Source of the DNA: Paenibacillus qinlingensis
GTDB lineage: Bacteria > Bacillota > Bacilli > Paenibacillales > NBRC-103111
Reading direction: 5' to 3'
Assembly (NCBI RefSeq): GCF_013204845.1
Contig: NZ_JABMKY010000019.1
Coordinates: 62,001 to 126,000, forward strand
DNA length: 64,000 nucleotides
Shown piece after piece: positions 18,049 to 34,444 of the stretch (positions within the stretch are counted from its first letter, which is position 1; every line of letters starts with the position of its first letter). Position numbers and translations under genes: made by a program. The notes below the pieces were generated by a model. That model saw only the letters and a program-made list of their open reading frames with translations, was not told where the DNA came from and did not search any database.

Positions 18049-18053
18049 GTTCT

Positions 18054-18092
18054 AGCACAAATAACCCTTGTGGGGTAAGGGTTTATGGTGCT
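18054..18092. other. nested hairpin just downstream of the repeated element
   Basis: AGCAC at 18054-18058 with GTGCT at 18088-18092, and AACCCTT at 18063-18069 with AAGGGTT at 18077-18083. No T-run follows. Role unknown; it marks the left edge of the AT-rich island. Confidence 0.35.
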
Positions 18093-18125
18093 TAGGCTTA
18101 TATTAAAAAGGAGTTCAGAAGCATT

Positions 18126-18147
18126 TGAAATGATTTTGAAATGATTC
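18126..18147. repeat. left copy of a 22-23 bp repeat flanking the island
   Basis: TGAAATGATTTTGAAATGAT followed by TC is repeated with one extra T as the 23-mer at 34051-34073. The two bracket the 16-kb conflict-gene island. Confidence 0.45.
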
Positions 18148-18213
18148 TTTCGTCATTCCGTTCTATATCCTTAAATTTTTTGAAACTGTAACGAAATAAA
18201 GGGAAGGAAACAT

Positions 18214-18595
18214 CTATGTTTCACTTACTTGGGAGGGTTGCGTCCCTCGGTTTATTACATTATCATACAGATTAACAAATTCATTGTGAGCAGAATTATA
18301 TGATAGATAACTGGAATCTAAATCATCCATCTCATGTGAAAATTTAGATTCACTAATTAATGCAGTAACCCTCAAGAGTAAACCCTGAAGAATGATCCTC
18401 AGTTGGTGGCTTTAATTCTAGACTTAAGTGCGAAAATAAATTATTTGCTTTACTTTTTAAACATTTTAATGCTAACCAATCTTCAACACCCAAACTATTT
18501 TCCCTCCTAAATATTATTCGATAAATAAATTCATTCCAAATTCCTTCAATCCAATAAACTCCCGTTAGATTAACGCAGCTGTTTAGTCTACAACT
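18214..18595 (-). pseudogene. frameshifted remnant of an unknown gene
   Basis: On the minus strand a frame is open from 18595 to a TAG at 18353-18355 and reads like protein (a VYWIEGIWNEFIYRIIF segment, then LGVEDWLALKCLKSKANNLF). Near 18385-18400 the adjacent frame takes over with equally protein-like text (ILQGLLLRVTALIS, then HEMDDLDSSYLSYN) and ends at TAG 18214-18216. An internal TTG at 18493 has AGGAGGG upstream, so a 46-residue product from the first half is possible. The simplest reading is one gene of at least 120 codons broken by a single-base frameshift and lacking its 5' end. I do not recognise the family. Confidence 0.5.
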
Positions 18596-19196
18596 TTATT
18601 TTCACAAGATATTTCAAGTAATAACTATCAATTATTAAAGTGTTTTTTCAAAAAAAAGGGGAATTATCATTAGGTTTATTCTCATATCAACACTAATTGA
18701 ACATAGAAAAATGAATACGAAAAATTAAGTAATAGAAGTTATATGCATGTCTTTTGAAGGGAAATAAGGATAATTGTCGAATATTGGAATATAGTACTTA
18801 AGATAAATTTATTTGGAAAGCTATTTAAGTTAGAAGACTAAATAATTCGTTGAAGCTTCATTGGCAAAAGTAATTGTTTAAAAGAACTGGAGTCGCTAAA
18901 CAAATTCAGCTTACCGCCGTGTATTGAAAATGAAATCACTCAAACCCATGAGAGTGTGGCCGTGAAGGTACATCAACTTATATTTTAAATTAGGACTTAC
19001 CCAGATGGAGAGAAGGGGCTGAGCACAATGCTCAGCCCCACTCTTGGTTGCAATCTGTAAATCAATCCGTATTAATACGAGTGTTTTAGTTTACACGGAT
19101 GAACTGAACAATGAAATTGAAAAAGTAAAAGTAATTTAGAAGAAGTACATTATGTGTCCATCTTGATAGATATAATGAATAGTAGGTGGTGAGAAA
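18596..19196. other. AT-rich gene-free interval with a strong hairpin
   Basis: No supported gene. A perfect 11-bp stem, GGGGCTGAGCA (19015-19025) and TGCTCAGCCCC (19029-19039) with loop CAA, lacks a T-run. ATTCAGCTTACC...ATTGAAAATGAAAT at 18904-18936 matches 28 of 33 positions at 34079-34111. TATAAT at 19171-19176 may be the -10 of the downstream operon, although no good -35 is seen. Confidence 0.45.
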
Positions 19197-20120
19197 ATGA
19201 ATGCAAGCATTGATTACAATGGAAACAAAGGATTTAGGCTACTGAATATTTATGAGAGGCTTAATAAAGGTGAAATTATAGCAAAAGTAGAACTTGCTGA
19301 ATGTTTTGGAGTTACTCAAAAAACCATTCAAAGAGATATTGCTGATCTTCGTGCATATTTAGCGGAGACACATTTTGCTGTGAATAAGGTGTCGATTAAA
19401 TACAACAAGATTAAAAATGGATATTATCTTATTAGAGTAGAACGAGATTGGCTGAAAAATGAAGAAATTATGGCTCTGTGTAAGATTTTATTAGAAAGCC
19501 GGGCTTTCTGTAAAGATGAAATAGATCGTCTTATTAGTAAACTTTTAACTCAAGTAGTGCCAATAGACCGTAAGAGTGTTGAAAATATGATAAGAAGTGA
19601 ACAACATCATTATGTTCCATTACGCCATGAGAAGCAATTGTTTGGTATCTTGTGGGAACTAGCTCAGTTTATTACAAGTAATGAAATAGCACAGTTTTCT
19701 TACACAAGACAAGATGGTTTTATTAAGAAAAGAATGGTAAAGCCAGTTGCCATTATGTTTTCGGAGTATTATTTTTATCTTGCAGCTTATTTGGTAGATG
19801 GAAGCAAGGACTTTCCTACTATTTTCCGTATTGATCGTATAAGTGAATTACTAGGAACGAAGCAGAAATTTAATATCCCTTATAAGGACAAATTCAATGA
19901 GGGAGAGTTTCGTAAAAGAGTACAATTTATGTATTCAGGTGAACTTAGAAAAATTAAATTTGAATTTTGCGGTCCTTCAATTGAGGCTGTACTAGATAGA
20001 CTACCAACCGCAGAAATTATTACAGAGCGAGATGGTGTTTATACAGTAAAAGCTGAGGTTTATGGTAATGGAATTGATATGTGGTTGAGAAGCCAAGGAG
20101 ACAAAATAAAAGTATTATAA
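19197..20120 (+). CDS. HTH/WYL-domain transcriptional regulator
   Basis: A 307-residue regulator with an N-terminal DeoR-like helix-turn-helix (KVELAECFGVTQKTIQRDIADL, residues about 31-52). A WYL-type ligand-sensing domain follows (SNEIAQFSYTRQ, then YYFYLAAYLVDGSKDFPTIFRIDRI, where FYL stands in the usual WYL position), with a C-terminal extension. WYL proteins often control phage-defence and toxin loci, sensing nucleic acids or nucleotides. ATG at 19197 follows AGGTGGTGAG. It lies 11 bp upstream of the dynamin-like gene on the same strand, so it is probably the autoregulating first gene of the operon. Confidence 0.85.
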   Translation: MNASIDYNGNKGFRLLNIYERLNKGEIIAKVELAECFGVTQKTIQRDIADLRAYLAETHFAVNKVSIKYNKIKNGYYLIRVERDWLKNEEIMALCKILLESRAFCKDEIDRLISKLLTQVVPIDRKSVENMIRSEQHHYVPLRHEKQLFGILWELAQFITSNEIAQFSYTRQDGFIKKRMVKPVAIMFSEYYFYLAAYLVDGSKDFPTIFRIDRISELLGTKQKFNIPYKDKFNEGEFRKRVQFMYSGELRKIKFEFCGPSIEAVLDRLPTAEIITERDGVYTVKAEVYGNGIDMWLRSQGDKIKVL

Positions 20121-20131
20121 GGAGCGTTTTC

Positions 20132-22129
20132 ATGATAACTGATTACAAACAAAAAAGAGAAAGTGTACTCAATGTTTTTTCATCTTATACCGATATATTT
20201 GAACATTTGAACGAACTAATCCCTCAAAATATTACTTATCAAGCTGAAAATATTAAAAATAATAAGTTTATCCTGATGGTTGCTGGAGAAGCAAAGAGTG
20301 GAAAATCAACTTTTATCAATGCATATTTAGGTAAAGAAGTCTTACCAATGGATGTTAAACAGTGTACTAGTGCAATAATCGAAATTGAATATGGTGAAAC
20401 GTACGAATTGATTGCAGAATATGCTCAAGCACCCAAAAAGAGATTAATTAAAGAAAGTGAAATAATAGATTTTCTAACAAATCATGCTGCTTTGAAGGAT
20501 GAGTATAGAGCAATTCCTGTTGCAGCAATTAATCATGAACTTTTAATAAAATATAACGGTAATCCTCCCAAGCGGATTGTAGAAGACTTAATCCTGGGAG
20601 TTAAAGATGATAACTTATATAATTTATCTGATAATGATTATACAAAAAGAATAAAGAATTATATTGAGGAAAATAGAAGTGGTTGGAAAAATATTGTAAC
20701 AAATATTCAAATAAAATGGCCACTGGATCAACCTTTTAAGGGGATCACAATTATCGATAGTCCTGGTATTAATGCAATTGGAAGAGTAGGTCAGATCACG
20801 GAAGAATACATTGAAAAAGCTAATGCAATAATTTTTGTGAAGTCATTAAGTGGACAAGCATTAGAATCTTCAGCATTTAAAAAGTTTCTTCAAACAAAAA
20901 GTGCTGATAAGCACAAGGATACTATTTATCTTGTTCTAACAGGGGCATCGGATAAAAGTGAACTAGAACTAAATAAGTTGCTTTCAGAAGCCAAAAATAT
21001 TTACAGCGAAATTCCTCAAAAAAGAATAATAAATGTAGATAGTAAATTACAGCTTATATTAAATCTATGTGCTAGTAAATCTGAAGATGACATCGATAAG
21101 TATTTTGATGATGCAGAAAAAAATGGAACACTTTTCCCTACAGCTGAGCGGCATTGGCTAAAAAGCAAGTGCCGTAAAGAGGCTTTTGTTGAATTGATGG
21201 AGCAACAATCTAATTTTTCAAGGGTCAATATGGCCTTGGAAGAGTTTGCGCGAAAAGCTCAATATTTTGCGTTACAAGAGCTTCTATTGTCAATAAGTAA
21301 ATCTTATATAAAAATTATTGAAAAACTGAAAGAAAATATTGATTTAAATGAGCTTAAGATTACTGATCCAAAAGAATTGGAAAGAAAGATTCATCAAAAA
21401 AATGAAGAAATTAGCGAGATACGTAGAAAAATGAATGAGAGTATTGAAATAATTATTAATGATTATTCTGATTCAAAAACAGGGAAAATAATTCTCGAAG
21501 CAAATAAATCTATAGATGAATATAATAGTCAATTAAGTAAAATATCCGGAAAATCAATGAGTGAACTAGAAAAGCTTTCTTTTAATAGAATCGATGAACT
21601 TGGAAATTTTAAGAAAACCTTGGGAAACGAGATCATTCAAAAATGTAACGATGAGCTGATAAAAATAACAGCTGAGAACGAGATCATTCATCCATCGTTT
21701 ATGGAGCCAGACTTTTCTCAAGGTGATTTTCTAGCGTTGAAAAACAGTACCGAAGGTGAGGCGGTTACGTATCGATCTATAGAAGAAGGAGCTACGTTCA
21801 AGAAAACTCGTACAGTTTCTGAATATTCAAAAGATATGCATTTTGAGTTGGTGAAAGATAGTATTATGAAACGCTTATTAATAATAAAGAACGATATTAT
21901 TAATGATTTGCAAGATTATACAATAGAAGTAACAAAAATATACAAGATGAAATTAAGGGAGAACGCAGATGAGAAGAAAGCTGAGTATGATAATTTGTTA
22001 GAAAAAAAAGTGGAAAACGATATCATCCAGAAAGAAATAGAAGCTAAAAAAACTTCTATTGAACTACTGGTACAAAATTTGAATATAATTACGACTTTAA
22101 ACGGAGGTATACGTAGTTATGTCAGCTAA
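20132..22129 (+). CDS. dynamin-like GTPase
   Basis: A 665-residue GTPase of the dynamin superfamily, which polymerise on and remodel or guard membranes. G1 is AGEAKSGKST (residues 51-60), G2 the T in KQCTSAIIEIE, G3 DSPG (209-212), followed by a YIEKANAIIFV block typical of bacterial dynamins. The C-terminal 350 residues are charged, helical and coiled-coil-like (KIHQKNEEISEIRRKMNESI). No transmembrane segment is present; the next gene supplies one. ATG at 20132 follows AAGGAGCG. The longer frame back to 20081 lies within the WYL gene. Several defence systems use dynamin-like proteins; this one could act in abortive infection or membrane surveillance. Confidence 0.82.
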   Translation: MITDYKQKRESVLNVFSSYTDIFEHLNELIPQNITYQAENIKNNKFILMVAGEAKSGKSTFINAYLGKEVLPMDVKQCTSAIIEIEYGETYELIAEYAQAPKKRLIKESEIIDFLTNHAALKDEYRAIPVAAINHELLIKYNGNPPKRIVEDLILGVKDDNLYNLSDNDYTKRIKNYIEENRSGWKNIVTNIQIKWPLDQPFKGITIIDSPGINAIGRVGQITEEYIEKANAIIFVKSLSGQALESSAFKKFLQTKSADKHKDTIYLVLTGASDKSELELNKLLSEAKNIYSEIPQKRIINVDSKLQLILNLCASKSEDDIDKYFDDAEKNGTLFPTAERHWLKSKCRKEAFVELMEQQSNFSRVNMALEEFARKAQYFALQELLLSISKSYIKIIEKLKENIDLNELKITDPKELERKIHQKNEEISEIRRKMNESIEIIINDYSDSKTGKIILEANKSIDEYNSQLSKISGKSMSELEKLSFNRIDELGNFKKTLGNEIIQKCNDELIKITAENEIIHPSFMEPDFSQGDFLALKNSTEGEAVTYRSIEEGATFKKTRTVSEYSKDMHFELVKDSIMKRLLIIKNDIINDLQDYTIEVTKIYKMKLRENADEKKAEYDNLLEKKVENDIIQKEIEAKKTSIELLVQNLNIITTLNGGIRSYVS

Positions 22130-22715
22130 TATTGAAAACAATGTTAATATTTTAATTGATGAAATTGCAAAAGAAATTGCAAATATTAAAGTGTCTTCAA
22201 AAAACTATGATGTGACCACAAGAGAAATATGTTCCTATGTATCTTCGAAAGTTGCGGCCCAATGTAAAGGATTAATGTCAACTTTATATACAGAGTTATC
22301 GAGTGAAACACTAAAAGGTGAAATTTTTAAAGATAATGCAAATAAAAATAAGTTTTACGATTTGGATTTGCGATCCCATATTTATGAAAAATACAATTTT
22401 GAACCAGCAAATAAAATTAACTTTAAGGCTGCAAATTCTCAACTTGTTGCATTAGGTATTCCTGTTGGTGTATTTGGAATTGGTGTTGCATTAACTTTAT
22501 CACTATCTAACATAATTGTTATTCCAGTAGCATTGGTAGTAGCGGTTCTATTGTATCCAGTAATTAAGAAGGGATTGGATAGTTTCAATAAACAACAATA
22601 TTATGCTACAGTGCAAAAATATATGAATGGTTTGAAAATAGAATTGCTATCATGGTTTGACTCTATTCAAACCTATTATCTAAAGCAGGTAGATGAGTTA
22701 ATTAAGACTTTATAG
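22119..22715 (+). CDS. small membrane protein, predicted partner of the dynamin-like GTPase
   Basis: A 198-residue protein with no family I recognise. The N-terminal half is helical and polar. Residues about 110-150 form two close hydrophobic segments (LVALGIPVGVFGIGVALTL and IIVIPVALVVAVLLYPVI), a hairpin like the membrane paddle of bacterial dynamins. The C-terminus is again amphipathic. ATG at 22119 has CGGAGG upstream and overlaps the GTPase gene by 11 bp, implying coupled translation. It is likely the detached membrane-anchoring module of the preceding GTPase; this is inference from topology and position. Confidence 0.7.
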   Translation: MSANIENNVNILIDEIAKEIANIKVSSKNYDVTTREICSYVSSKVAAQCKGLMSTLYTELSSETLKGEIFKDNANKNKFYDLDLRSHIYEKYNFEPANKINFKAANSQLVALGIPVGVFGIGVALTLSLSNIIVIPVALVVAVLLYPVIKKGLDSFNKQQYYATVQKYMNGLKIELLSWFDSIQTYYLKQVDELIKTL

Positions 22716-22725
22716 GAGATGCAAA

Positions 22726-25700
22726 ATGTCAGATAATCAATTGTTGAAATTATCATCAGAACTTCAATCAGAGTTTGCATTAGATACCCAAATAATAGCA
22801 AATCAGACTATTGAATTATTAACTGAGTTTTATCCAATGTATATCAACGGAGATGAAGTAAATGAAACGAATGTCGAAAATGATACAGCAGGAATATTAA
22901 ACTCTCTTCAATTTTATAAAATTGATTCTTGTACTATTGAAAAAACAGAAGATATAGCAAAGTTTCTGAATGAAAAAATGCAAAAGTTTATCTCTGCTTT
23001 ATATTCCATTGGAATTTCATTTTGTTATGGGGTGAAATCTGATGGAAATAAATGCGACCTTGTTATAGGTATAAGTGGAAACACTAACAGTAGACTAGCT
23101 AAAAAAGTAATTGAAGGACTTTTATCTGGCATTAATCTTATTGATTGTAAAGATGATTTTCATTTTAAAAACTCAAACACACATTTCGGAATGATTAACG
23201 GGATACCATCTTTACTTATTGATAATAGACTACAGAAATTCGATTTAAGCTCTGTTATTAAAGCATTAAATGGTGAAAAGTTTACAGTCTTAATTATGGC
23301 TAAGCCGATTAGTGGTCAGGTTTTACAAAGTAAAAAAAGTACTGCTATTCAAATTAGAGATAATTGCATGTCAATAAGTAAAAGAAATGTTTCAAGGCAA
23401 CAAAATATTACAAGAACAGAAAATGAAGCATTTTCTAATGGAACCCAAAGTAATATTAATGTAAATGTTAACGGTGGAGCTATTGGATTAGCTACAGGAG
23501 CAGGAATTGGTCTTGCAGTTGGAGGTCCGGGTGGTGCAATTATTGGCGGTGGAATAGGAATGTTAGTAGGACAGAGTGTTAGTGGTGGCTATAGTAAAGG
23601 AATAAGCGATAGCTATAGTAAATCTATCTCTGAAGCTATTAGTGAAGGTGGATCTATGTCTTTAGATATCCAAAATGGGTTTGCCATAGAGCTAATGAAA
23701 TTAGCCGATAATTGTTTAGAAAGATTAAAACTTGGTCATAACACAGGTTTTTGGCAAACATCACTTACATATTCCGCAGATAATAAAATGGCAAGAGATT
23801 TGATACAAGGCTGTATATATGGTGAAATTGCAAAACCAAATCCTGAGCTACTGCCTCCTAGAATATATCAATTAGCTAATGAAGATTTAAGTTATGCGAT
23901 AAGGGAGCAGCACGTACTAATCCCAAAAGGGTTATTTTCTGAAGAAAACTCCAGCACTTCAATATGTAGTTATATTAGTTCGCAGGAGTTAAGTGCTATA
24001 TGTGCAATTCCTCAGGAAAATTCACCTGCATTTGAACTAAAAGAGGGAACTTTTTATCCTTTAATAGCTCCAAATGTAGCTGATAGAAGCAAAATAGAAA
24101 TTGGAAATATTTGCGATGGTGAAAGAGCTTTAACAAATATTAGTTTTTCGTTTTCTAACGAAGACCTTAATAAACATACTTTTGTGTGCGGTATTACGGG
24201 GAGCGGAAAAACGAATACTGTCAAGGAAATACTAAGGAAATCAGGGAAACCATTTTTGGTTATCGAATCTGCCAAAAAAGAATACAGAAATTTGAAAGCA
24301 AAAAATAATAATATTGTAGTTTATACTTTAGGGAAACCTGAAATTAACTGTCCACAAATTAACCCGTTTTATATTCTGCCAGGTATTAGTCCACAAATGC
24401 ACATAGACTTATTAAAGGATTTATTCAATGCATCATTTTCATTTTATGGCCCGATGCCATATATTTTAGAAAAATGCTTACATAACATATATACAAAAAA
24501 AGGTTGGAATTTAACTCTTGGTTATCATCCTTATTTAGTTAATAAAAAAAGTCAATTAGATTTGTTTGATGCAAGTATTATTGCAGAAAAGTATAGTAAT
24601 TCTACACATACATATATATTTCCAACTATGAGTGATTTAAAAGAGGAAATAGAAAACTATATACTCCACGAACTCGAATATGATGGAGAAATGTCTGGAA
24701 ACATTAAAACCGCAATTAAAACCCGTCTTGAAAGTTTATGTGTTGGAGCCAAGGGGTATATGTATAACACAACCAATGTGCTCAACTGGACAGATATATT
24801 GGCTTCAAAATGTGTTTTTGAAATGGAAGGTTTGGCGGATGATTCAGATAAAGCATTTTCTGTTGGTCTACTTGTGATTTTCATAAGTGAACAAAGACAA
24901 GTTGAAAAAGAAATAGAACAAAACACTGATGCTGAACTGAAGCACTTGCTCGTCATTGAAGAAGCACACAGGCTTTTAAAGAATGTGGAAACTGAGAAAA
25001 CTAGTGAAAATATGGGTAATCCAAAAGGAAAAGCGGTTGAACATTTTACAAACATGATTGCTGAAATGCGATCTTATGGTCAGGGGGTAATTATTGCAGA
25101 GCAAATTCCAACAAAAATTGCTCCTGATGTAATAAAAAATACTTCTAATAAGATAGTCCACAGGATTGTATCAGCTGACGATCAAGCAGTTATCAGCAAC
25201 TCAATATGCATACCAACTGAAAAAGGAATATATTTAGGTGTTCAAAAAACTGGATATGCATTATGTCATAAAGAAGGAATGTCTTTGCCTGTATCAGTAA
25301 AAGTCTCAAGAGTTGAGAACTGCCTGATTAAAGATGCAGACCTGTATATGAGGGATGTTGCAGAAAGATTTGAAAGTATTAATGAGAGTGCCGTTTCAGA
25401 TGCTCTAGGTAAAATATTTGAACTAAAAAGTATTCCTCTTTTAGCAAATTTAATGATTTCCAACTATGAAGTATGCTATCAAGCAATTAGTTTGACAAAA
25501 GAATTATTGTTTAAAAAATCTAAAGAAAATAACGTTAGTTTCATTTCAGGAACAAACGGAAAAGATACTATTTCATTATTATTATCTAAATCAATTTTGA
25601 AAATAGTTACTTGGGGTGTTTTCTCAAACAATGAAGTTATTGATTCAAAAATATCCGATGCATTAATAGAAACAATTAAATCACCTCATGAAAGTGCTAT

Positions 25701-25923
25701 TATAAACTTAAAAGATGTTCTATCGACATTTTATAGTGAGGACACGAAAAAAAGAGGCATAAACATTATTGTCGAATTAGTGTTTAATTATTACTATTCA
25801 CAAAACCAATCAGATGTAAATCTTAATGACATTATTTCACAGTGGTTTGTAGTGAACGATGAGGACACGATTAATGAGATCATTAATTGTGTTATGAAAA
25901 GAGGTTGTGCAATTGGCGCTTGA
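22726..25923 (+). CDS. HerA-like (DUF87) ATPase with glycine-zipper segment
   Basis: A 1065-residue ATPase of the HerA/FtsK class, hexameric motors that pump DNA or protein. Walker A is GITGSGKT (489-496) and Walker B LLVIEEAH (741-748). A sensor-like region follows (AEMRSYGQGVIIAEQIPTKI) with an arginine-finger-like NKIVHRI. The N-terminal 240 residues are unrecognised. Residues 249-283 are a glycine zipper (GGAIGLATGAGIGLAVGGPG and following), able to insert in or pack against membrane, then a Ser-rich SYSKSISEAIS repeat. The C-terminal 200 residues are helical and unknown. ATG at 22726 follows ATAGGAG. It is cotranscribed with the dynamin pair and the toxin nuclease, so it may deliver or activate the nuclease. 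Confidence 0.85.
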   Translation: MSDNQLLKLSSELQSEFALDTQIIANQTIELLTEFYPMYINGDEVNETNVENDTAGILNSLQFYKIDSCTIEKTEDIAKFLNEKMQKFISALYSIGISFCYGVKSDGNKCDLVIGISGNTNSRLAKKVIEGLLSGINLIDCKDDFHFKNSNTHFGMINGIPSLLIDNRLQKFDLSSVIKALNGEKFTVLIMAKPISGQVLQSKKSTAIQIRDNCMSISKRNVSRQQNITRTENEAFSNGTQSNINVNVNGGAIGLATGAGIGLAVGGPGGAIIGGGIGMLVGQSVSGGYSKGISDSYSKSISEAISEGGSMSLDIQNGFAIELMKLADNCLERLKLGHNTGFWQTSLTYSADNKMARDLIQGCIYGEIAKPNPELLPPRIYQLANEDLSYAIREQHVLIPKGLFSEENSSTSICSYISSQELSAICAIPQENSPAFELKEGTFYPLIAPNVADRSKIEIGNICDGERALTNISFSFSNEDLNKHTFVCGITGSGKTNTVKEILRKSGKPFLVIESAKKEYRNLKAKNNNIVVYTLGKPEINCPQINPFYILPGISPQMHIDLLKDLFNASFSFYGPMPYILEKCLHNIYTKKGWNLTLGYHPYLVNKKSQLDLFDASIIAEKYSNSTHTYIFPTMSDLKEEIENYILHELEYDGEMSGNIKTAIKTRLESLCVGAKGYMYNTTNVLNWTDILASKCVFEMEGLADDSDKAFSVGLLVIFISEQRQVEKEIEQNTDAELKHLLVIEEAHRLLKNVETEKTSENMGNPKGKAVEHFTNMIAEMRSYGQGVIIAEQIPTKIAPDVIKNTSNKIVHRIVSADDQAVISNSICIPTEKGIYLGVQKTGYALCHKEGMSLPVSVKVSRVENCLIKDADLYMRDVAERFESINESAVSDALGKIFELKSIPLLANLMISNYEVCYQAISLTKELLFKKSKENNVSFISGTNGKDTISLLLSKSILKIVTWGVFSNNEVIDSKISDALIETIKSPHESAIINLKDVLSTFYSEDTKKRGINIIVELVFNYYYSQNQSDVNLNDIISQWFVVNDEDTINEIINCVMKRGCAIGA

Positions 25924-26563
25924 ATTGCTAACTAAATTAGTATCTGAGGTTGCAAAAACAGATATCAGCAAAGAATTTACAAAAAAGCTTGAAGCTTCAG
26001 AGTTGAAAAAAGCTATGTCAGTTATCGAGCAGATAGAAAAAGTTAAAAATATGCCATTGCAACAACTTGAACTTTTAAATGATAAAATTGCATCGGAAAA
26101 TACAACTGAAGTAAAAAAAGGGTTAAGCGATGAAGAAAAGACAAAAATAAAAAAAGAAACGGATTGGTCAGATAAAATTATTGATGCTATGGGATCCATA
26201 GAAGAATATGAAATTTACAAGAAAGCTGGTTTGCAAGAAGCTGAAATTGACGGTAAAAAATGTCTTATTAGAACTGATATTGATATGGATCAAAAAGACG
26301 AATTCGGCAGAACTAATAAAGAAAGAATGGAAAATGGTCAATCTCCAATTAGCAAAAATGGTGAGACGGTAGAACTACACCATATAGGACAAAAATCTGA
26401 TTCACCCCTTGCTGAATTGACCACTAAAGAGCATCGCGGAGTAGGAAATGATACTATTCTTCATGATAAGCAAAAAGAATCAGAAATCGATAGGAATGAA
26501 TTTAAAAAAGTGCGCGAAATTCATTGGGAAAGTAGAGCCAATGAGCAGAAGGGAGTAAAATGA
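25913..26563 (+). CDS. LHH-type HNH/Endo VII toxin nuclease
   Basis: A nuclease of about 216 residues. Its C-terminal 130 residues match the LHH-type HNH domain found at the ends of LXG and other polymorphic toxins: WSDKIIDAMGSIEEYEIYK, DQKDEFGRTNKERMENG, VELHHIGQKSDSPLAELT with the catalytic His pair, EHRGVGNDTILHD. The first 75 residues are a coiled-coil-like leader, not an LXG or RHS delivery domain. TTG at 25913 is 8 bases after AAGAGG and overlaps the HerA gene end by 11 bp; GTG at 25907 is an alternative. The stop overlaps the SUKH immunity gene (ATGA). As a free-standing gene behind a HerA ATPase it is unusual. Confidence 0.87.
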   Translation: MALELLTKLVSEVAKTDISKEFTKKLEASELKKAMSVIEQIEKVKNMPLQQLELLNDKIASENTTEVKKGLSDEEKTKIKKETDWSDKIIDAMGSIEEYEIYKKAGLQEAEIDGKKCLIRTDIDMDQKDEFGRTNKERMENGQSPISKNGETVELHHIGQKSDSPLAELTTKEHRGVGNDTILHDKQKESEIDRNEFKKVREIHWESRANEQKGVK

Positions 26564-26961
26564 TGGAGAATATTATTAGTGCCATTGAAAAACTTCGGAA
26601 TTTAAGGCATTTAGAGGCAGCAACAGATGAACAAATAGAACTAGCACAAAGGCAATTAGGCTTACTTTTTTCCGTAGATTTTAAGCAATATTTAAAAAAA
26701 TATGGAGTTATATCAGCTAAAGGTATTGAACTCACAGGTATTACGTCATCGCCACGATTGAATGTAGTTGAAGTAACAAAGAGTGAACGTGAATTAAATA
26801 AGATTCCAAACGATTTATATGTTATTGAAAACATAGCAATTGAAGGAATAATATTGCTCCAAAATAGTTTAGGCGAGATTTATGAACTCACTCATAATTC
26901 AAAAATACAAAAGAAATACAATAGTATTTATGAATATCTTGAAACTGAACACAACAATTAA
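26560..26961 (+). CDS. SMI1/KNR4 (SUKH) family immunity protein
   Basis: A 133-residue protein of the SUKH superfamily, the commonest immunity family for nuclease toxins. It shows the typical early block (ATDEQIELAQRQLGLLFSVDFKQYLKKYG), a central strand with a hydrophobic-polar alternation (PNDLYVIENIAIEGIILLQN), and the terminal SIYEYLE motif. ATG at 26560 overlaps the nuclease stop by 4 bp, behind AAGGGAG. It should bind and inhibit the LHH nuclease encoded immediately upstream, based on family precedent and coupling. It is the last gene of the operon. Confidence 0.87.
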   Translation: MMENIISAIEKLRNLRHLEAATDEQIELAQRQLGLLFSVDFKQYLKKYGVISAKGIELTGITSSPRLNVVEVTKSERELNKIPNDLYVIENIAIEGIILLQNSLGEIYELTHNSKIQKKYNSIYEYLETEHNN

Positions 26962-26987
26962 ATTCCTAATATTTTTAGTAAAGGGGT

Positions 26988-27212
26988 ATGACAAAGTCTA
27001 ATGTAGGTTACCTTTCTCCAAAAGAAAAAACTTTTAATTCAAGGGTTTATTCCACCGCGGCAAATGGAAGCCAAATCTTTAAAGAACAGTAGCCATTTGA
27101 ACAAATCGCTAATAATATAAATGATTTTGTTTATTCAGTTTATTTAACTCTAACAATGATTTTCAATATACTCCGTCAGAACGATATTCGTGTAATCTTC
27201 GCGAAGATGTAA
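26988..27212 (+). pseudogene. small ORF interrupted by an in-frame TAG
   Basis: ATG at 26988 behind AAGGGG opens a 34-codon frame (ending ANGSQIFKEQ) that meets TAG and then stays open for 40 more codons (PFEQIANNINDFVY...) to TAA at 27210-27212. A broken small gene, possibly another immunity protein, is one reading. Chance is not excluded. The rest of 26962-27449 shows no gene. Confidence 0.3.
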
Positions 27213-27449
27213 TATATTGTGATAACGATTATAGGCTTTATAGTTAAAATTCTTTGTAGGACTGCCCCTCCGTCAATTGACTAGAATAGAGTTTGCTCCA
27301 AAGAATAGCGTTCTTTTATCAATGTCTTATCGTTTAAACAACTAGATTTCTATATTTACGAGTTTACCATCGGCTATTTTGGCATGTATGTCTAAGATGG
27401 ATGGATTGCTTGTCATGCAAAGTATCTTTGTCTAAATAGGGGATTAACA

Positions 27450-27599
27450 GTGGAAGCTCCCGTAAGTAGAGAATCGTCAGAATCGATCAACGTATTATTC
27501 GGAAATGTAAGAAATACGTTGTTGTTCTCATCACTGCCGAAAAATCTTTTGAATACAAAGTCATTTCGAGGATCACAACTATATCAACGAATAACGTAG
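27450..27599 (+). CDS. 49-residue ORF leading the helicase/GHKL operon, unknown
   Basis: GTG at 27450 lies 7 bases after AGGGG and opens a 49-residue frame of protein-like composition (EAPVSRESSESINVLFGNV near the start, NTLLFSSLPKNLLN in the middle) ending at TAG 27597-27599. That is 18 bp before the helicase ATG, so the helicase ribosome site directly follows its stop. The position suggests a small first gene of the operon or a leader peptide. No family recognised; it could also be the tail of a decayed gene. Confidence 0.4.
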   Translation: MEAPVSRESSESINVLFGNVRNTLLFSSLPKNLLNTKSFRGSQLYQRIT

Positions 27600-27617
27600 A
27601 AAAGAGGAGAAATTCAT

Positions 27618-30059
27618 ATGTATGAAAGTATTTTTGCAAGATGGGAGAATTTCGAAAAATTAGATATTGAAAATAATTTATCGATATTATTCCAGTATGC
27701 AGTTTTATTTAGAAATTGGGAAAAAGCATATGAATTAAGGAGGAATATTGATATAAATAAGGTTTCTTATAAACCAGTAGTTATAAATGACGAGATCGTT
27801 TTTATTGAACATAAGAGCATTACTATAAAAAATTGTATAGCGTGGAATTTTGGGTATTTAAAAAAATATGATGAAAATAATAAAATTAATATGGAAAGCA
27901 GTCTTTTAAACGGCGTATCTGACATGAAAGAGCTTGCTTATTATTCGGATAAGATTGACGAGGGAAACGACGTTTTCGATTTATTTTTTTTGAAAGAACA
28001 ACCAATGTTTGATGTTATATATTATAAACAACAGGAGAAGGCGTCAAAACAGATAAAGGCTTTAAATATAAATTTGATCTTTGATGAAGTAGGGACAGGG
28101 AAGACTGTATCGGCCTTATACTGTGTGAGGGATATTATTAGTGAAAGACAGGAAGACGCAAAAATACTTATTATTTGCCCAAACAACAAAAAAAATGAAT
28201 GGTTAAAGGATATTGAACGTCAACTTGGAAGATATACGCACTTAGTAGAAAATACCGATAACGAAAATATATACTATCATGAACAGAAAAAACTATATTT
28301 TCAAAATCATGAGCCTTGTATTTTTATTGAAGGGCAAAAAACCAAAGAGACCAAAGCAACTCTTAACAGTTGGACAAACGATACGAAATGGGACTTAGTC
28401 GTTATCGATGAAGGTCATTTGTGTTTTGATAATTACAAACAACTTAGAGCAAAGAGAGCCGTACTTTTAACTGCAACACCTATTGTTGTCAATTCCGCAG
28501 CTACAGGCGGGGTGTTGGATATTTCCAAAATAAGGACAATACCTGAATATGCTACATTGCTTAATGGTATAACAGATAGCAACAATGTTTGCGCAGCTAA
28601 TTTATTTGAAAATAACTATAATAAATTACCTGCTGATGATAAGAGTAGATTTTTTACTTGTCTTTTTAGAGAAGACTTAGACATCCCTTCAAAAAGACGC
28701 GAAATTAAGTTTTTGGTGTGTAAGAGATGGCCAGATAGATCTCATTATCTTGATGTGCTTCGAGAAGTAAAGGGTGGAATGACCGGGCTTGTTTACGAAC
28801 AAGATGATGACTATCTAATTGAAGGGATTTTTGGAAGCTTCAAATCGGAAATTGAGGAGAAAGGTTATTTAATTGGCCAAAGACCGAGAATCACAAATCA
28901 CAAGTATGAAGAATTGAAGTCATACATAAATAACACCGAAACGCAATCGTATATTATTTTTTGCAACTATAAATTTGTAGCAAATAATATTTATAATAAA
29001 TTCATAAACGATCAAGGTACTTTAAAGAATATTGGAAATACCATTTTTGTAAAAAAATATGGTAGCGATAACTGTGAAGTATTTCCCAAAGATAACAGTG
29101 TTAACAAAGATAATATTTTCGATTATCTAATGATGAATATAGAAGCAGGTAAGCGTGTCATATTTATTACGACTGGGGCTTCTGGGGGTACGGGTTTAAA
29201 CCTTGGAAAGTTTGACGGAGTTATCAATTATGAGTTGCCATTTACGTGCATAGAGCTTGAACAAAGGTTTGGTAGAGTTGATAGACTAAATAATAAAGTT
29301 CAAAGCAAAAAAATGATTTTTATTCTCAATGAGCATGAAAATCCTATGCTTCGATACAGTACCCTTAAAATTAGCGAGACGTGTAAGCATATGCCAATTA
29401 GAAATACAGTTTTATTTTACCCCGAATTTATTAAAGAAAGTATAAAAGGGCTACTCACCGAATTAGAAAAGTGCAAAATAGAACTTGAACAAAACAATGG
29501 TTTTTTAAGTGTTCTAGAAAAGTATACAGAGGTTTTAGAAGCGCATAAAAATTTAGCTAAACGTCTGATTGATTACGCATTTAAGAAAAGAAGCGTAGAA
29601 GATTTTGAAGAAGATGTTAGCGATATAAAAGAATTTGCCGAGGTGTTTAATGATAATTTAACCGCAGTTTTTTCAGTTATAAACAAAAAGCGAAACTTTT
29701 ATGCTTTGATAGATGAGGTGGAAAATTGGAAAAATCTTTTGGGGGCAGATACTCAAATAGACACCAAAGCGGTAGCTGCTAGTTTAGAAAAAAGTGACGA
29801 TGAATTAAGCGAGTATACTCAAAGAGATGGTAACCTTATAAGTAGTGAAGTTGTCGTACAAGATATGAGTAAGAGCAAAAGCATTGACGAATTATGGCAA
29901 GCCGGAGATGTGAATTTCAAAATAAATTGTCAAATGAACGAACTCACGAACTTAAAAGAAAAAGTAATTAGTCAAGAAGGCACAAGTGGTATTTTTTATA
30001 TTTACAACAAAAAATATATTCGCCAGACAGTAGCTGACTTTAGACGAGGGGAGGTATGA
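27618..30059 (+). CDS. SNF2-like superfamily 2 helicase
   Basis: An 813-residue DNA/RNA-dependent ATPase. Motif I is DEVGTGKT (156-163), motif Ia region ILIICPNN, motif II DEGH (264-267), and motif III LLTATP (283-288). In the second RecA domain, motif V is GGTGLNL (523-529) and motif VI QRFGRVDR (549-556). The DEGH box and the order of motifs fit SNF2/RapA-like translocases. The N-terminal 150 residues and the C-terminal 250 helical residues are unassigned, and no nuclease motif is seen. ATG at 27618 follows AGAGGAG. It is 7 bp upstream of the GHKL ATPase gene. Helicase plus GHKL pairs recur in defence loci; a specific named system is not claimed. Confidence 0.88.
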   Translation: MYESIFARWENFEKLDIENNLSILFQYAVLFRNWEKAYELRRNIDINKVSYKPVVINDEIVFIEHKSITIKNCIAWNFGYLKKYDENNKINMESSLLNGVSDMKELAYYSDKIDEGNDVFDLFFLKEQPMFDVIYYKQQEKASKQIKALNINLIFDEVGTGKTVSALYCVRDIISERQEDAKILIICPNNKKNEWLKDIERQLGRYTHLVENTDNENIYYHEQKKLYFQNHEPCIFIEGQKTKETKATLNSWTNDTKWDLVVIDEGHLCFDNYKQLRAKRAVLLTATPIVVNSAATGGVLDISKIRTIPEYATLLNGITDSNNVCAANLFENNYNKLPADDKSRFFTCLFREDLDIPSKRREIKFLVCKRWPDRSHYLDVLREVKGGMTGLVYEQDDDYLIEGIFGSFKSEIEEKGYLIGQRPRITNHKYEELKSYINNTETQSYIIFCNYKFVANNIYNKFINDQGTLKNIGNTIFVKKYGSDNCEVFPKDNSVNKDNIFDYLMMNIEAGKRVIFITTGASGGTGLNLGKFDGVINYELPFTCIELEQRFGRVDRLNNKVQSKKMIFILNEHENPMLRYSTLKISETCKHMPIRNTVLFYPEFIKESIKGLLTELEKCKIELEQNNGFLSVLEKYTEVLEAHKNLAKRLIDYAFKKRSVEDFEEDVSDIKEFAEVFNDNLTAVFSVINKKRNFYALIDEVENWKNLLGADTQIDTKAVAASLEKSDDELSEYTQRDGNLISSEVVVQDMSKSKSIDELWQAGDVNFKINCQMNELTNLKEKVISQEGTSGIFYIYNKKYIRQTVADFRRGEV

Positions 30060-30066
30060 TCACACG

Positions 30067-33000
30067 ATGAACAATGAGAGCGTGTTAGATGCTATAAAAA
30101 TTTTCTATATGTCCCCTCAAAAATACACTAAGGATAGACAGAACTTACAGAACAAAATAAATCTTTTAGACGACTACCTCAAGGGTCATGATACAGAAGA
30201 AGGACGCAACCTATTCACGGCATTTAGTGAAGTATATTCAGGCAAAGATAATCTGAGAGTTCCTATTATTGATACCGTATACAAAACAATTAAAGATGAT
30301 TTGGGGCTTAGTGCAACAAGATTATACAGAGAAATATATTTTAATGAAATTATTCAAAATGCAAATGATTTACCAAATTCAGAAGACGTGATGATAACCC
30401 TTGACGAAGATGAGAAACATTTTGTTGTTAGTTTTGAATATAACGACATCGGGTTTGATACAAGAAATTTAATTGGTTTTGTCAATACAGAAATAAGGGT
30501 GAAAAAGTCTGAGCTAGCATCTACGGGTAAACATGGTGTCGGAATTAAATCACTCTTTTACTTTGTGGACAGGCTGACCATTGAAAGCAACGTAAAAATA
30601 GACGTTGTTATAGAAACAAAGACGGTTGAAGAAGTCCAAGAGACAGAATCTGTTTCTTGTGAAATTGAGTATAATCACAATCGTGTCAATAATAATAAAA
30701 CGAAACTCACAATCGTTTTTGCAAAAGATAAAGAATGTGCGGGTTTTAACATTGTAAAGCTAAAAGAATTTATAAGTACCTGTTTAAGCGGACAGACTGT
30801 TTCCGAAAAAACAATAGAAACTTATTTTTTTGGAACGGAACAAGCGGGTTCTATATTTGATGCACGGGCATTACTTTTTACTGACAAAAATAAAAATAAA
30901 GAAAATGGTATCAAAAGGATTGCCTTTAAAAAAAGTGATGGTTCTATGTTGTTTGAATTATTTAGAAATGATGATACAGAAAAACACATAGAGCATAATA
31001 ATATTCAATTTTGTAAACAATCTATAGGTTATAAAATCGCTAATTGTGATAAAAAGATATTTGAGGACTACATCGTATTCACCACTTTTTCCGAAAATAA
31101 GGATAAACAAAATATCAGTTTTGCATTTCCATCTAGGCTAACTTCAGAGAGTGAACGTTACTATTCAACATACTATATACCAGATGAAATACCAAAGTAT
31201 CGCTTAAATGTACTCGTGAATTCAGAATATTCAAATGTTTCTAGGACGAAACTCACTGATGGTAATGAGGCTGAATTAAGAAAGATTCATACAGAGATTG
31301 CATTCAATATTAAAAAAGCATATTGGTTTATGGCAGAAAAAGTGGTTGGAGAATCGAAGCTTGGAATAGAGATTAGTGTTTTGTTTCATGGATTGCTTCA
31401 ATTGTTTTATGGTCAAAATAATATTGAAATTAACATAAATGATCTTAACGGAATAAATAATCGTTACTTACCAAAGTACAAAAACAACACCAATTTTGAT
31501 ACATACATAGCCTTTAAAAGAGATGTTAAAGAAAAATATGAAAAGGTTACTATTGGTCAGAAAATTGTAGATACGATAGAAATAAATCGTTTTTACGATG
31601 ATATCATTGTTTCAAATGATTCCTTATTATATGACAGTGAATTGTTTATAGAGGAAATTAAACCTATTTATGAGATTGCGTTTGATAAAAATGATTTTTT
31701 ATTAAGAAGCATACTTAATACTGCTGGTAATGTTAGGGATATGCTTTATTATAGAGTAACAAGTGAATTTCCAAAGGATTCAAATCAAATGTTTACCGAT
31801 AAAATAGTTGACGACTGGCATCAAGTACTAAACAAACAACTAGTAAATTCTTCTTTTCTAATGATAGGGCGATACAAACTTCATAATAGAATAAATATTA
31901 ATGGGAAAATAACAGGTGCCTCTTTTTTTGAGTATCTATTCAATGATAATGATGATATACAAAGTCCTAAAGATTCTTCGGAATACCCAACTTTTAGGCA
32001 TGCACAAAATGGCTTATATAATGAAGAATATAAAGAATTAAGATTTAAACTCTGGCAACTAATGGTGAATCGAAAAATTGAGGACTGCAATGCAGAGGTT
32101 TTCGATAATGTCAATGAAAGTGATTTAGTGAAAAAACACTACTGTCCAAATAGCTCTTCATGTATAGGGAATATGTGTTTTTATTATTCGGATCATTATA
32201 ATGCTTATACGGCATATTGTGTTAGTCCCAAAATATATAGGTATGATTATGAACCTCAGTATGAAAACAGTTCAGATGTGTTTGGAAAGAATGAAACAAA
32301 ATTATTTGTAGATAAATTGATTGAAGAGGCAGAATTGAAAAATAATGTTACAGAGGACCTAGGGCACTTAATCTTATCAAACAATCGAGTTCCGCCTCAT
32401 TTGGATTATGGATACAGGAAAGAGGCATATGTTGATGAACGAGTAATAAAGATCAGATTGTTTAATATCGATTTTTTGAAAACCATATATGCACATGACT
32501 TTAATGATTTCAAATTCTATATGTGTAAATTATTTGATAATGTTGCTGCCAAACGTAAGTATTCTCCACCGTTTAAGCTACTGACATCTAAAAATGAAAG
32601 GATTTTATTTGATTTTAGTGTAAACAATCTTTCAGAAATATTCTCTTTCTTCTATCCAAGGCTAGAGCGAGACCTAGAACATTCTCAGTATTATCATTAT
32701 GATTTTAAAACAAAGCTAGTAAATGAGTTTATAAATAATAGTTGTGGCTATGAATTTTTTGACTTTTTAAAACAACGGACAGGTTATGATGTTTATGTAA
32801 CTCAAACTACAAGTTGTAAATCATCGAATGAAATAATGTTTATTCACGACAACAAAATACAATTGATTCACAAAAAAGATCCTGTAGAAGTGGGATGTGT
32901 CACCAATGCTGATAAAAAAATATACATTGTACATGGCCCAGATCTTGACATGAAGGAAGCTGTAATAAAAACCTTCAAATATGCAAAAATAAGCACAGAT

Positions 33001-33492
33001 ATTATTAACTTTTGCGAATCATTTGTAAGTTCAAATTCATCAGAGACTATATTTGGAGAGGCATACAATAATATTAAATCTATTAAATGTTGCACAAATG
33101 ATCATGCAAGAAAATTTAAGGGAATAATCGACAGCTCGAAAATCTCTTGCAGTGGAATGGTTAAATTGCTTTTATCAAGAGGAAACAACAATAATAAATG
33201 TAGCTGTTGTTGTAAAAATATTGATTATGACAAAGGTAAATTAATAATAGTAAATAATAGCGATAATGATACACAAGCTAATTATCCGCAAATTATATCA
33301 GTTGTTTGTCCTGAATGTAAAACAATAATTTCTAATAGTTTAGAATCTGCACAAATTTGTAAAGAGGGTGAAACTCATTTTGTGAACTATCAGTGTCGTA
33401 TACATAACTCAGTTCAATCTAAAATTGTTATGTTTCGGTCACAGTTAACTGATGGCAATTTGTCAATTTGCTATGCTCCAGCTTGTAATTGA
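30067..33492 (+). CDS. large GHKL (sacsin/Hsp90-like) ATPase with zinc-knuckle-like C-terminus
   Basis: An 1141-residue protein. The Bergerat ATP-binding fold lies at residues about 85-260: N-box EIIQNAND (94-101), G1 DIGF (127-130, where DxGxG is usual, so the second Gly is lost), and G2 TGKHGVGIKS (153-162). This is closest to the sacsin/DUF3883-associated GHKL group and unlike histidine kinases. The long central region is unrecognised, with an isolated cysteine cluster near 697-706 (CPNSSSCIGNMC). Near the C-terminus, NKCSCCCKN and, about 45 residues later, CPEC look like a zinc ribbon. ATG at 30067 is 7 bp after the helicase stop. Probably the sensor or regulatory ATPase of the pair. Confidence 0.82.
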   Translation: MNNESVLDAIKIFYMSPQKYTKDRQNLQNKINLLDDYLKGHDTEEGRNLFTAFSEVYSGKDNLRVPIIDTVYKTIKDDLGLSATRLYREIYFNEIIQNANDLPNSEDVMITLDEDEKHFVVSFEYNDIGFDTRNLIGFVNTEIRVKKSELASTGKHGVGIKSLFYFVDRLTIESNVKIDVVIETKTVEEVQETESVSCEIEYNHNRVNNNKTKLTIVFAKDKECAGFNIVKLKEFISTCLSGQTVSEKTIETYFFGTEQAGSIFDARALLFTDKNKNKENGIKRIAFKKSDGSMLFELFRNDDTEKHIEHNNIQFCKQSIGYKIANCDKKIFEDYIVFTTFSENKDKQNISFAFPSRLTSESERYYSTYYIPDEIPKYRLNVLVNSEYSNVSRTKLTDGNEAELRKIHTEIAFNIKKAYWFMAEKVVGESKLGIEISVLFHGLLQLFYGQNNIEININDLNGINNRYLPKYKNNTNFDTYIAFKRDVKEKYEKVTIGQKIVDTIEINRFYDDIIVSNDSLLYDSELFIEEIKPIYEIAFDKNDFLLRSILNTAGNVRDMLYYRVTSEFPKDSNQMFTDKIVDDWHQVLNKQLVNSSFLMIGRYKLHNRININGKITGASFFEYLFNDNDDIQSPKDSSEYPTFRHAQNGLYNEEYKELRFKLWQLMVNRKIEDCNAEVFDNVNESDLVKKHYCPNSSSCIGNMCFYYSDHYNAYTAYCVSPKIYRYDYEPQYENSSDVFGKNETKLFVDKLIEEAELKNNVTEDLGHLILSNNRVPPHLDYGYRKEAYVDERVIKIRLFNIDFLKTIYAHDFNDFKFYMCKLFDNVAAKRKYSPPFKLLTSKNERILFDFSVNNLSEIFSFFYPRLERDLEHSQYYHYDFKTKLVNEFINNSCGYEFFDFLKQRTGYDVYVTQTTSCKSSNEIMFIHDNKIQLIHKKDPVEVGCVTNADKKIYIVHGPDLDMKEAVIKTFKYAKISTDIINFCESFVSSNSSETIFGEAYNNIKSIKCCTNDHARKFKGIIDSSKISCSGMVKLLLSRGNNNNKCSCCCKNIDYDKGKLIIVNNSDNDTQANYPQIISVVCPECKTIISNSLESAQICKEGETHFVNYQCRIHNSVQSKIVMFRSQLTDGNLSICYAPACN

Positions 33493-33658
33493 TGACTTTG
33501 ATTAGAAGGTGAATTTGAACGCTGTCATATATTTGTTTTGTATTAGGATGGCTTTTTATAAAGTAATTTCAGAAAATTTTAACGTGCTAGACATACAGGT
33601 GACAGAGATTATGGGACATAAAAAGCCTGCTTGAGACTACGGTTTAAGGGAGGAGAAG

Positions 33659-33808
33659 ATGAATCCGTAAGATCTTCTGGAAGCAATAGAAACGAGTGAG
33701 GATAGGGTTTTCGAAGCTTCAACACCCAGTATATCCAAAGCAGAAAGCATCGTCATAAGCAAGCACAAGAAAGAGCTGTTGGAGGTTCTCAAACAGCCCT
33801 ATCCTTGA
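33659..33808 (+). pseudogene. small broken ORF (MNP-stop, then 45 open codons)
   Basis: AAGGGAGGAG precedes ATG at 33659, but the fourth codon is TAA. The frame then continues with protein-like residues (DLLEAIETSEDRVFEASTPS and on to KELLEVLKQPYP) to TGA at 33806-33808. A strong ribosome site followed by an immediate stop suggests a recently inactivated small gene. Family not recognised. Confidence 0.35.
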
Positions 33809-33891
33809 GAAAAAACGCAACAACACCATAAAAAGACTCGGATTTATATTCTTTTCTGGATTACTATCGACATGTCACTGCGTGAATGAAG

Positions 33892-33965
33892 GAGCCGCCG
33901 TATAACGAATGGTTCCAACGGTGGTGTGGGAGATCTGTTAATCAACTATTGTGGAACCTCCTACC
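33892..33965 (+). mobile_element. probable group II intron 3' remnant (domains V-VI)
   Basis: GAGCCGCCGT (33892-33901) pairs, with G-U pairs, with ACGGTGGTGT (33918-33927) around an inner AAC-GAAT-GGTT hairpin. This is the shape of domain V, including the AGC triad. It is followed by GGGAG...CTCC (33928-33961), resembling domain VI, and the ending CTACC. The ACGGTGGTGTGGGAG text is characteristic of bacterial group II introns as I remember them. No intron reverse transcriptase is present, so it would be a relic. Confidence 0.45.
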
Positions 33966-34050
33966 TAATCTGAATTGAGAGCCCCACCTTGTCTTCTCAG
34001 TAATTCAGGTAGCAGCAGATGCTCTTTTCCATTTATCTAGTGGTTATTAT

Positions 34051-34111
34051 TGAAATGATTTTTGAAATGATTTGAGAGATTCAGCTTTCCACGGCGCATT
34101 GAAAATGAAAT
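34051..34111. repeat. right flank repeats matching the left side of the island
   Basis: 34051-34073 is the 23-bp partner of 18126-18147 (one T indel). 34079-34111 matches 18904-18936 at 28 of 33 bases. The two blocks are adjacent here but about 760 bp apart on the left. Confidence 0.5.
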
Positions 34112-34204
34112 TCTTTCATTTTCAGAAAACGCCAAAACCTTGCCACATGGCTTTACAGCTCACTTTTCCCTATCACTCAAACCTTAAAAAATCACCAAAA
34201 TCTC

Positions 34205-34238
34205 GGAACCAACGCCCTCTTGATTGGGTTCCTTTTTT
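34205..34238 (+). terminator. terminator at the right edge of the island
   Basis: GGAACC at 34205-34210 pairs with GGTTCC at 34227-34232, followed by TTTTTT. The GGGTTCCTTTTTT end is identical to the terminator of repeated element A at the left edge (18035-18047). Confidence 0.6.
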
Positions 34239-34444
34239 GTGTCTGAGGTTCTATAATAATCGTCTATACAACGAAGTTCGGCAAATAACGAAGCGGCCTT
34301 AATTATTCTCAGAAATTGTGTTAAAATTTGTATAAAATTCAGCAACAAGCTGCTAGCCCTACAATAGATTACATAAAAGAGCACGCATCAGTTTCGGCCT
34401 GTAGGGGAATGGATTTCAATGCCGATAAGTAGGGAATGGTGATC

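Follow-up and report, generated by a model that had tools for sequence, protein, structure and literature searches.

How can a GHKL ATPase and a helicase stop an invader when no nuclease works beside them? Conflict systems that pair a GHKL ATPase with a superfamily 2 (SF2) helicase were predicted as early as 2008, and in 2025 protection was demonstrated for a fusion of GHKL with a nuclease. We analyzed a 64,000-nucleotide stretch of the Paenibacillus qinlingensis genome (contig NZ_JABMKY010000019.1, positions 62,001 to 126,000; hereafter the window, with coordinates counted from its first letter), in which an SNF2-family helicase gene is followed by the gene of a large GHKL ATPase. As this pair is a minimal, two-gene case, the question becomes directly testable on one 6-kb unit. 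We predict that the pair is a two-component immune system directed against incoming DNA (phage or plasmid) and without a nuclease of its own, with a probability of roughly 0.45; a role against mobile elements as such is likely, while a remodelling mechanism that needs no nuclease falls somewhat short of even odds. The two genes are as follows:

27618..30059, plus strand: SNF2-family DNA translocase of 813 amino acids (aa) (P0001), assigned from Pfam, a structure model, Foldseek and conserved residues
30067..33492, plus strand: GHKL ATPase of 1141 aa (P0002), assigned from the NCBIfam sacsin N-terminal domain, a structure model and invariant residues

Both open reading frames (ORFs) lie on the same strand with 7 bp between the helicase stop (30059) and the GHKL start (30067), the arrangement that an earlier note on this DNA, made from the letters alone, had reported. 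Among 395 genomes of the same order, relatives were found in three besides the window's own, one of them a weak 93-residue match, and in 398 genomes drawn from the phylum the window's own copy was the only one. Scanning 84,980 species genomes with an alignment-based search yielded 12 GHKL loci in Oscillospiraceae, Lachnospiraceae, other Clostridia, Paenibacillus and Ureibacillus, and one Lysinibacillus plasmid also carries the pair. Beyond the window, 14 GHKL loci with 20–39% identity were collected across Bacillota (15 distinct loci with the window); the pair is thus rare and scattered among Gram-positive bacteria. A helicase ORF lies directly upstream on the same strand in 14 of the 15 loci (13 of 14 when the window is left aside; the helicase of L018 is partial, at a contig edge), mostly at a spacing of –26 to +21 bp as counted from mechanical start codons (–56 in L021). 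The exception, L019 (9815–13143), lacks the helicase, and a frameshift divides its GHKL gene into two frames even though the sequence is 79–88% identical to intact relatives; we take this as decay that followed when the partner was lost. With the sole exception decayed, we consider the linkage real and old; the neighborhood survey that the earlier note had proposed found the genes together and not dispersed. The plasmid collection gave one match per protein, both at adjacent genes of the same plasmid; helicases without a GHKL partner were looked for in the plasmid and viral collections and in three genomes only. The helicase and GHKL gene trees agree on the well-supported groups (the window with its closest relative, G496; L020/L021/L022; and L014 with the L012–L017 group). 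The P. phytohabitans copy clusters with gut Clostridia, apart from the window copy, which suggests lateral transfer. A phage or viral origin was rejected, as no GHKL relative was present in the phage collections or among the IMG/VR viral contigs; the 42 viral helicase matches were weak and mostly limited to parts of the ATPase core.

Both proteins retain intact ATPase motifs. The helicase matches SNF2-rel_dom (2.8e-12) and Helicase_C (8.6e-8) in Pfam and contains DEVGTGK, DEGH, TATP and ELEQRFGRVDR; its model (mean predicted local distance difference test score, pLDDT, 66.5) has an N-terminal helical domain, two RecA lobes (about 137–600) and a helical C-terminus, with SMARCAD1, ISW1 and Mot1 at the top of the Foldseek list and ZorD and RapA lower down. 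The GHKL protein, which found no match in a PDB sequence search, was modelled (m074d71bf375b, mean pLDDT 61.5) as an N-terminal helical segment, a Bergerat-fold ATPase with S5 transducer (about 61–469), a middle region (about 470–890) and a C-terminal domain (about 895–1141), the quality being good across most of the N-terminal 450 and the C-terminal 240 residues and poor between them. Residues 61–469 resemble the GHKL and S5 modules of Hsp90, GyrB, MORC3 and Topo VI (Z about 10–11), and E94, N98, D127, G129, G157, G159, K161 and R393 are invariant in 14 aligned GHKL proteins. The invariant S5 arginine R393 sits in N-x-S-R-T-K-L and is presumably, by analogy with what we know of Hsp90, the catalytic-loop arginine. 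The earlier note had judged the motifs of both ATPases intact, which these residues bear out, apart from a G1 box that it called degenerate; that last point was mistaken, because D127-x-G129-F130 is invariant in 14 of 14 aligned homologues and is a family trait, not a sign of decay.

The pair sits at the 3' end of a genomic island poor in guanine and cytosine (GC), which the earlier note had recognized and which could now be delimited:

18049..34294, strand not assigned: GC-poor genomic island carrying the SNF2-GHKL pair, from the GC profile, flank mapping and PADLOC annotation of the site's occupants
34049..34242, plus strand: right-boundary element of the island, single copy in its own genome, with a 79% match in G575

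The GC content is 0.29–0.35 (about 0.31) across 18–34 kb vs. about 0.47 outside; left-flank homology to five genomes of the same genus breaks off no more than about 20 bp from 18048, and right-flank homology resumes at about 34294–34412 in two of these five. The site, beside a CDF transporter gene, is a defense hot spot in the genus: behind the same left junction PADLOC recognized Gabija (GajA 2.6e-172, GajB 2.4e-215) together with Hachiman (HamB 6.2e-117, HamA 6.5e-20) in G575 (L029), and an Avs2-like gene (4.3e-172) in G511 (L031). The non-coding 194-bp right-boundary element is found again in G575, 79% identical, where it borders the Gabija/Hachiman island (L029 6368–6561), and could be a recombination or integration boundary. 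The island ends share a 14-bp direct repeat (18034, 34225), which was considered as an att site and not accepted, since it lies in terminator-like stems. The defense context is strong elsewhere too: the pair has a complete Wadjet I operon on one side and a complete Wadjet II operon on the other in an Oscillospiraceae metagenome-assembled genome (L013, 1–22085), has TIR and PARG-like genes nearby in L023, and is preceded on the plasmid by PD-(D/E)XK/UvrD genes and followed by an Eco57I-type restriction-modification gene. In the island itself, 5' of the pair, are genes for a WYL regulator, a dynamin-like GTPase and its small partner, an ATPase resembling HerA, an LHH nuclease and an immunity protein of the SUKH type, in agreement with the neighboring conflict operon claimed in the earlier note. 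In G496 the pair stands between an nrdR-like core gene and insertion sequence (IS) remnants and the HerA-LHH operon is missing, so we regard the pair itself as the unit. No nuclease or methylase gene is shared next to the pair in the window, the closest relative or the other loci, the earlier note having remarked on this absence for the window; the sole candidate is a PIN-Hsp70 fusion in Lachnospiraceae.

No model of PADLOC or NCBIfam claims the pair, the only hits being local ATPase matches far below curated cut-offs, and no named system that pairs these two proteins was found in the open-access literature, so that the failure of the first reading to equate it with a known system was justified. 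The nearest parallel is offered by prokaryotic conflict operons of MORC/paraMORC ATPases and SF2 helicases, including SNF2, for which DNA looping in restriction was proposed (Iyer, Abhiman and Aravind 2008, PMC2292703). They share with our pair a GHKL-S5 ATPase beside an SNF2-family helicase, lateral mobility and a defense context, and the pair shows both the order of GHKL ATPase then S5 domain and the adjacent SF2 helicase of such operons. In contrast, the published operons contain an HNH or EcoRII nuclease, Vsr, methylase or RAV DNA-binding gene, none of which occurs with our pair, with nucleases accompanying ATPase and helicase and HNH genes often present in SNF2-MORC operons (PMC2292703), while the GHKL protein described here is large, ends in a four-cysteine domain and has an ATPase sequence of sacsin type rather than MORC type. 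The MORC S5 motif GhXhhpXXRhl (PMC2292703) is absent, as position –8 from R393 is N instead of G and the homologues do not fit either; the ExxxH of the paraMORC2 C-terminal S5 is likewise lacking, since not a single His is conserved across the GHKL alignment. In VcSduA (GHKL-Shedu, paraMORC3), mutation of the GHKL ATPase abolishes anti-phage activity (PMC12137116). This defense protein also has an N-terminal GHKL ATPase, but it brings its own C-terminal PD-(D/E)xK (DUF4263) nuclease, for which no conserved D/E/K set exists here, and needs no helicase. Tiamat TmtA is the sole PADLOC model that matches the GHKL protein (E 5.8e-8), and it does so in the ATP-binding domain only (residues 92–196 vs. 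profile positions 79–179 of 1486; TmtA models have 1486–1655 positions, of which about 100 are matched); Tiamat itself consists of one gene and is not known to have an SNF2 partner. The helicase shares an SNF2-type ATPase core with DISARM DrmD, Dpd DpdE, BREX BrxHI/II, Hma HmaA and Zorya ZorD, its best local PADLOC/NCBIfam matches. DrmD scored 55 bits vs. a curated 610 and DpdE 69.5 vs. 500, the BrxH match was weak and local, and the likeness to ZorD is at the level of fold; among the eight island proteins scanned there were no DISARM or Dpd partners and no PglZ or BrxC, and no island gene matched ZorA or ZorB. Each of DISARM, Dpd, BREX, Zorya, Tiamat, GHKL-Shedu, MORC and paraMORC2/3 was thus rejected for missing a defining feature, and the papers on CoCoNuT and Dnd, checked for SNF2-GHKL or Hsp70 pairs, deal with different systems. 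The pair is a real, rare and strictly linked two-gene candidate defense system, which we read as a variant of the GHKL-SF2 conflict operons of 2008, alike in its presumed mode of action and probably their distant cousin.

Proteins with GHKL and S5 domains are ATP-gated dimers, and SNF2 proteins translocate on double-stranded DNA. We infer that the GHKL protein probably dimerizes into an ATP-gated clamp, like Hsp90, MutL, GyrB and MORC, which would close on DNA or on a DNA-bound protein complex. The SNF2 translocase would travel along the captured double-stranded DNA and load the clamp, or strip or reposition bound proteins, and repeated cycles could compact, tangle or silence the invader until it is neither transcribed nor replicated. 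MORC2 is an ATP-dependent DNA clamp and compactor (PMC12216690); this, together with the dimeric state of GHKL proteins, translocation by SNF2 motors, the looping proposed for MORC/paraMORC operons and the ATPase requirement of GHKL-Shedu, leads us to favor remodelling or silencing without a nuclease. If DNA were silenced by clamping, the pair would give bacteria an equivalent of the MORC silencing known from eukaryotes.

A version of the system with more parts may exist in the gut. In three Lachnospiraceae the pair ends a long same-strand cassette of conserved order (L083, L084 and L085, reverse strand, continuing into L016, L015 and L017), which starts with a PIN-Hsp70 fusion (about 780 aa), a protein of about 264 aa, an Hsp70-like protein (about 500 aa) and a 570–597-aa protein, and ends with an Hsp70-like protein (561 aa), a 470–485-aa protein, another Hsp70-like protein (487 aa), the helicase, which has an additional N-terminal cysteine-rich region, and the GHKL protein. 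The cassette thereby comprises four or five Hsp70-like ATPases, one of them PIN-fused, and three proteins of no assigned family; G787 (L084) additionally encodes a metallo-beta-lactamase/RMMBL protein and the fifth Hsp70-like protein, along with further genes. The spacing of 0–20 bp to the helicase suggests co-transcription, and PADLOC recognized no clear system in the cassette. Among the 344 genomes covered in that order, its 470-aa component was confidently present only in the centre genome, G786 (one other match, at E 9e-4, was negligible), so the cassette is rare too. Hsp70 ATPases have been described as components of conflict operons (PMC7159879), as in the Lachnospiraceae version of the pair; the systems in the passages found there center on GTPases, tubulin or FNIII/GrpE, and those passages contain no SNF2-GHKL module or PIN-Hsp70 fusion. 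From gene order, the Hsp70-like proteins are candidate, though unproven, partners of the pair. That clamp and translocase compact or silence incoming DNA without a nuclease, and that some gut bacteria extend them to a chaperone-like assembly with four or five Hsp70-type ATPases, one PIN-fused, is a tentative proposal with the odds leaning against it. With such an extension by Hsp70, the defense repertoire would gain an architecture based on chaperones, and Hsp70- and Hsp90-type ATPases in one operon would make a defense system of 'chaperone logic'.

Several points speak against a nuclease-free immune system. No element for self/non-self discrimination (methylase, modification sensor) was recognized; the structure models of both proteins derive from shallow alignments (11–12 sequences) and reach a mean pLDDT of only 61–67; GHKL residues 470–890 have practically no usable model and leave room for an effector that evolves fast and has no invariant residues; and the additional Hsp70-like genes of Lachnospiraceae, one with a PIN domain, mean that an RNA-cleaving effector may belong to some versions of the system.

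This last point leads to the alternative that the pair is a sensor or loading module and takes its effector from elsewhere, either a host nuclease or, in Lachnospiraceae, the upstream PIN-Hsp70 proteins. The Hsp70-like genes directly upstream at three loci, with metallo-beta-lactamase/RMMBL at one of them, speak for this, as do the nucleases of the published MORC/paraMORC operons (PMC2292703). At the other loci, however, no conserved third gene stands beside the pair, and the HerA/LHH operon next to it in the window is not found in the closest relative, which makes a borrowed effector rather unlikely.

Alternatively, the GHKL protein could act on proteins, like Hsp90 or sacsin, and the helicase could be a RapA-like motor working on RNA polymerase or the replisome, so that infection would be stopped by remodelling a protein machine. 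RapA is the best match of the helicase in the PDB sequence search, and all 12 members of alignment A2 match the sacsin-type model NF047352 at E ≤ 0.001 (best 5.2e-12). The family is thus related to sacsin-type GHKL proteins by sequence, the window member itself (1.3e-8, 35.2 bits) staying below the curated cut-off of 50; sacsin SR1 resembles the model over the ATPase part only (Z about 10–11). Hsp90 matches with its N and middle domains (Z about 11), residues 470–890 lacking a model, and the Hsp70-like partners in Lachnospiraceae would suit a proteostasis- or transcription-directed system. The fold, however, fits Hsp90, GyrB and MORC equally, and with their Z scores tied it decides neither among these relatives nor on the substrate, while SNF2-type motors in defense are generally known to act on DNA; we therefore find a protein target improbable.

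The earlier note had left two ways out of the missing nuclease, an effector hidden in the C-terminal regions or remodelling of nucleic acid, and the conservation pattern disfavors the first as far as a nuclease is concerned, while remodelling is the option that we favor. A restriction-type system would require a nuclease domain that escaped recognition in the middle or C-terminus of the GHKL protein, for instance a diverged HNH/treble-clef at the cluster C1045/C1048/C1081/C1084, which lies within the C-terminal domain and probably binds zinc. The CxxC-x(n)-CxxC spacing is like the structural zinc knuckle of some HNH nucleases, and HNH genes are frequent in the published SNF2-MORC operons (PMC2292703). 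Past residue 470, however, the only conserved polar residues in the 14 proteins are R602, Y603, Y655, K659 and these four cysteines (K470 lies at the module edge). Conserved His, Asp or Glu residues are missing from the last 670 positions, which makes a nuclease site of the HNH, PD-(D/E)xK, PLD or a similar type unlikely; in the C-terminal 300 residues of ten GHKL homologues Pfam gave no credible nuclease, and neither Pfam nor the structure model revealed one in the C-terminus of the helicase. A hidden nuclease in the GHKL C-terminus was accordingly rejected, and restriction by an overlooked domain has little chance of being right. The slimmest chance is that the genes serve a mobile element itself (maintenance or inter-element competition), as the island, the plasmid copy and the IS remnants around relatives might suggest, against which stand the lack of a mobility gene common to the loci, the absence of GHKL copies from viral contigs and phage collections, and the company of Wadjet, Gabija, Hachiman and Avs2.

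The 656-bp gap between the upstream HerA/LHH/SUKH operon and the pair contains a small frame:

27450..27599, plus strand: tiny ORF, most likely a chance frame outside the system, from Markov simulation and the lack of a tblastn match

This 49-aa ORF with a GTG start had been listed in the earlier note as the part preceding the pair. We rejected it as a component, as the longest ORF reached at least 49 aa with P = 0.55 in first-order Markov simulations of the gap with the same dinucleotide content, and no tblastn match below E 5 was obtained in related loci. Scans for promoters and terminators gave no signal above shuffled sequences.

The dynamin/HerA/LHH operon was also rejected as part of the system, being common neither to G496 nor to the other loci. 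It begins after a WYL regulator (19197–20120) with a second candidate conflict operon (20081–25923) of a dynamin-like GTPase, a small partner with a predicted hydrophobic stretch and a 1065-aa HerA-like ATPase, which contains a glycine-zipper segment and matches NF033849 over residues 223–827 with a score below the cut-off. Attached to it at 25907–26961 are an LHH (HNH/EndoVII) nuclease gene and an adjoining SUKH-5 immunity gene of toxin-immunity type. G496 (L089 12664–16101) also has two genes for dynamin-like GTPases, about 8 kb downstream of its copy of the pair, but not the HerA/LHH genes that the window has. Outside the island, 38494–46284 encodes a 2596-aa protein with S-layer-type repeats in its N-terminal and RHS-type repeats in its C-terminal part.

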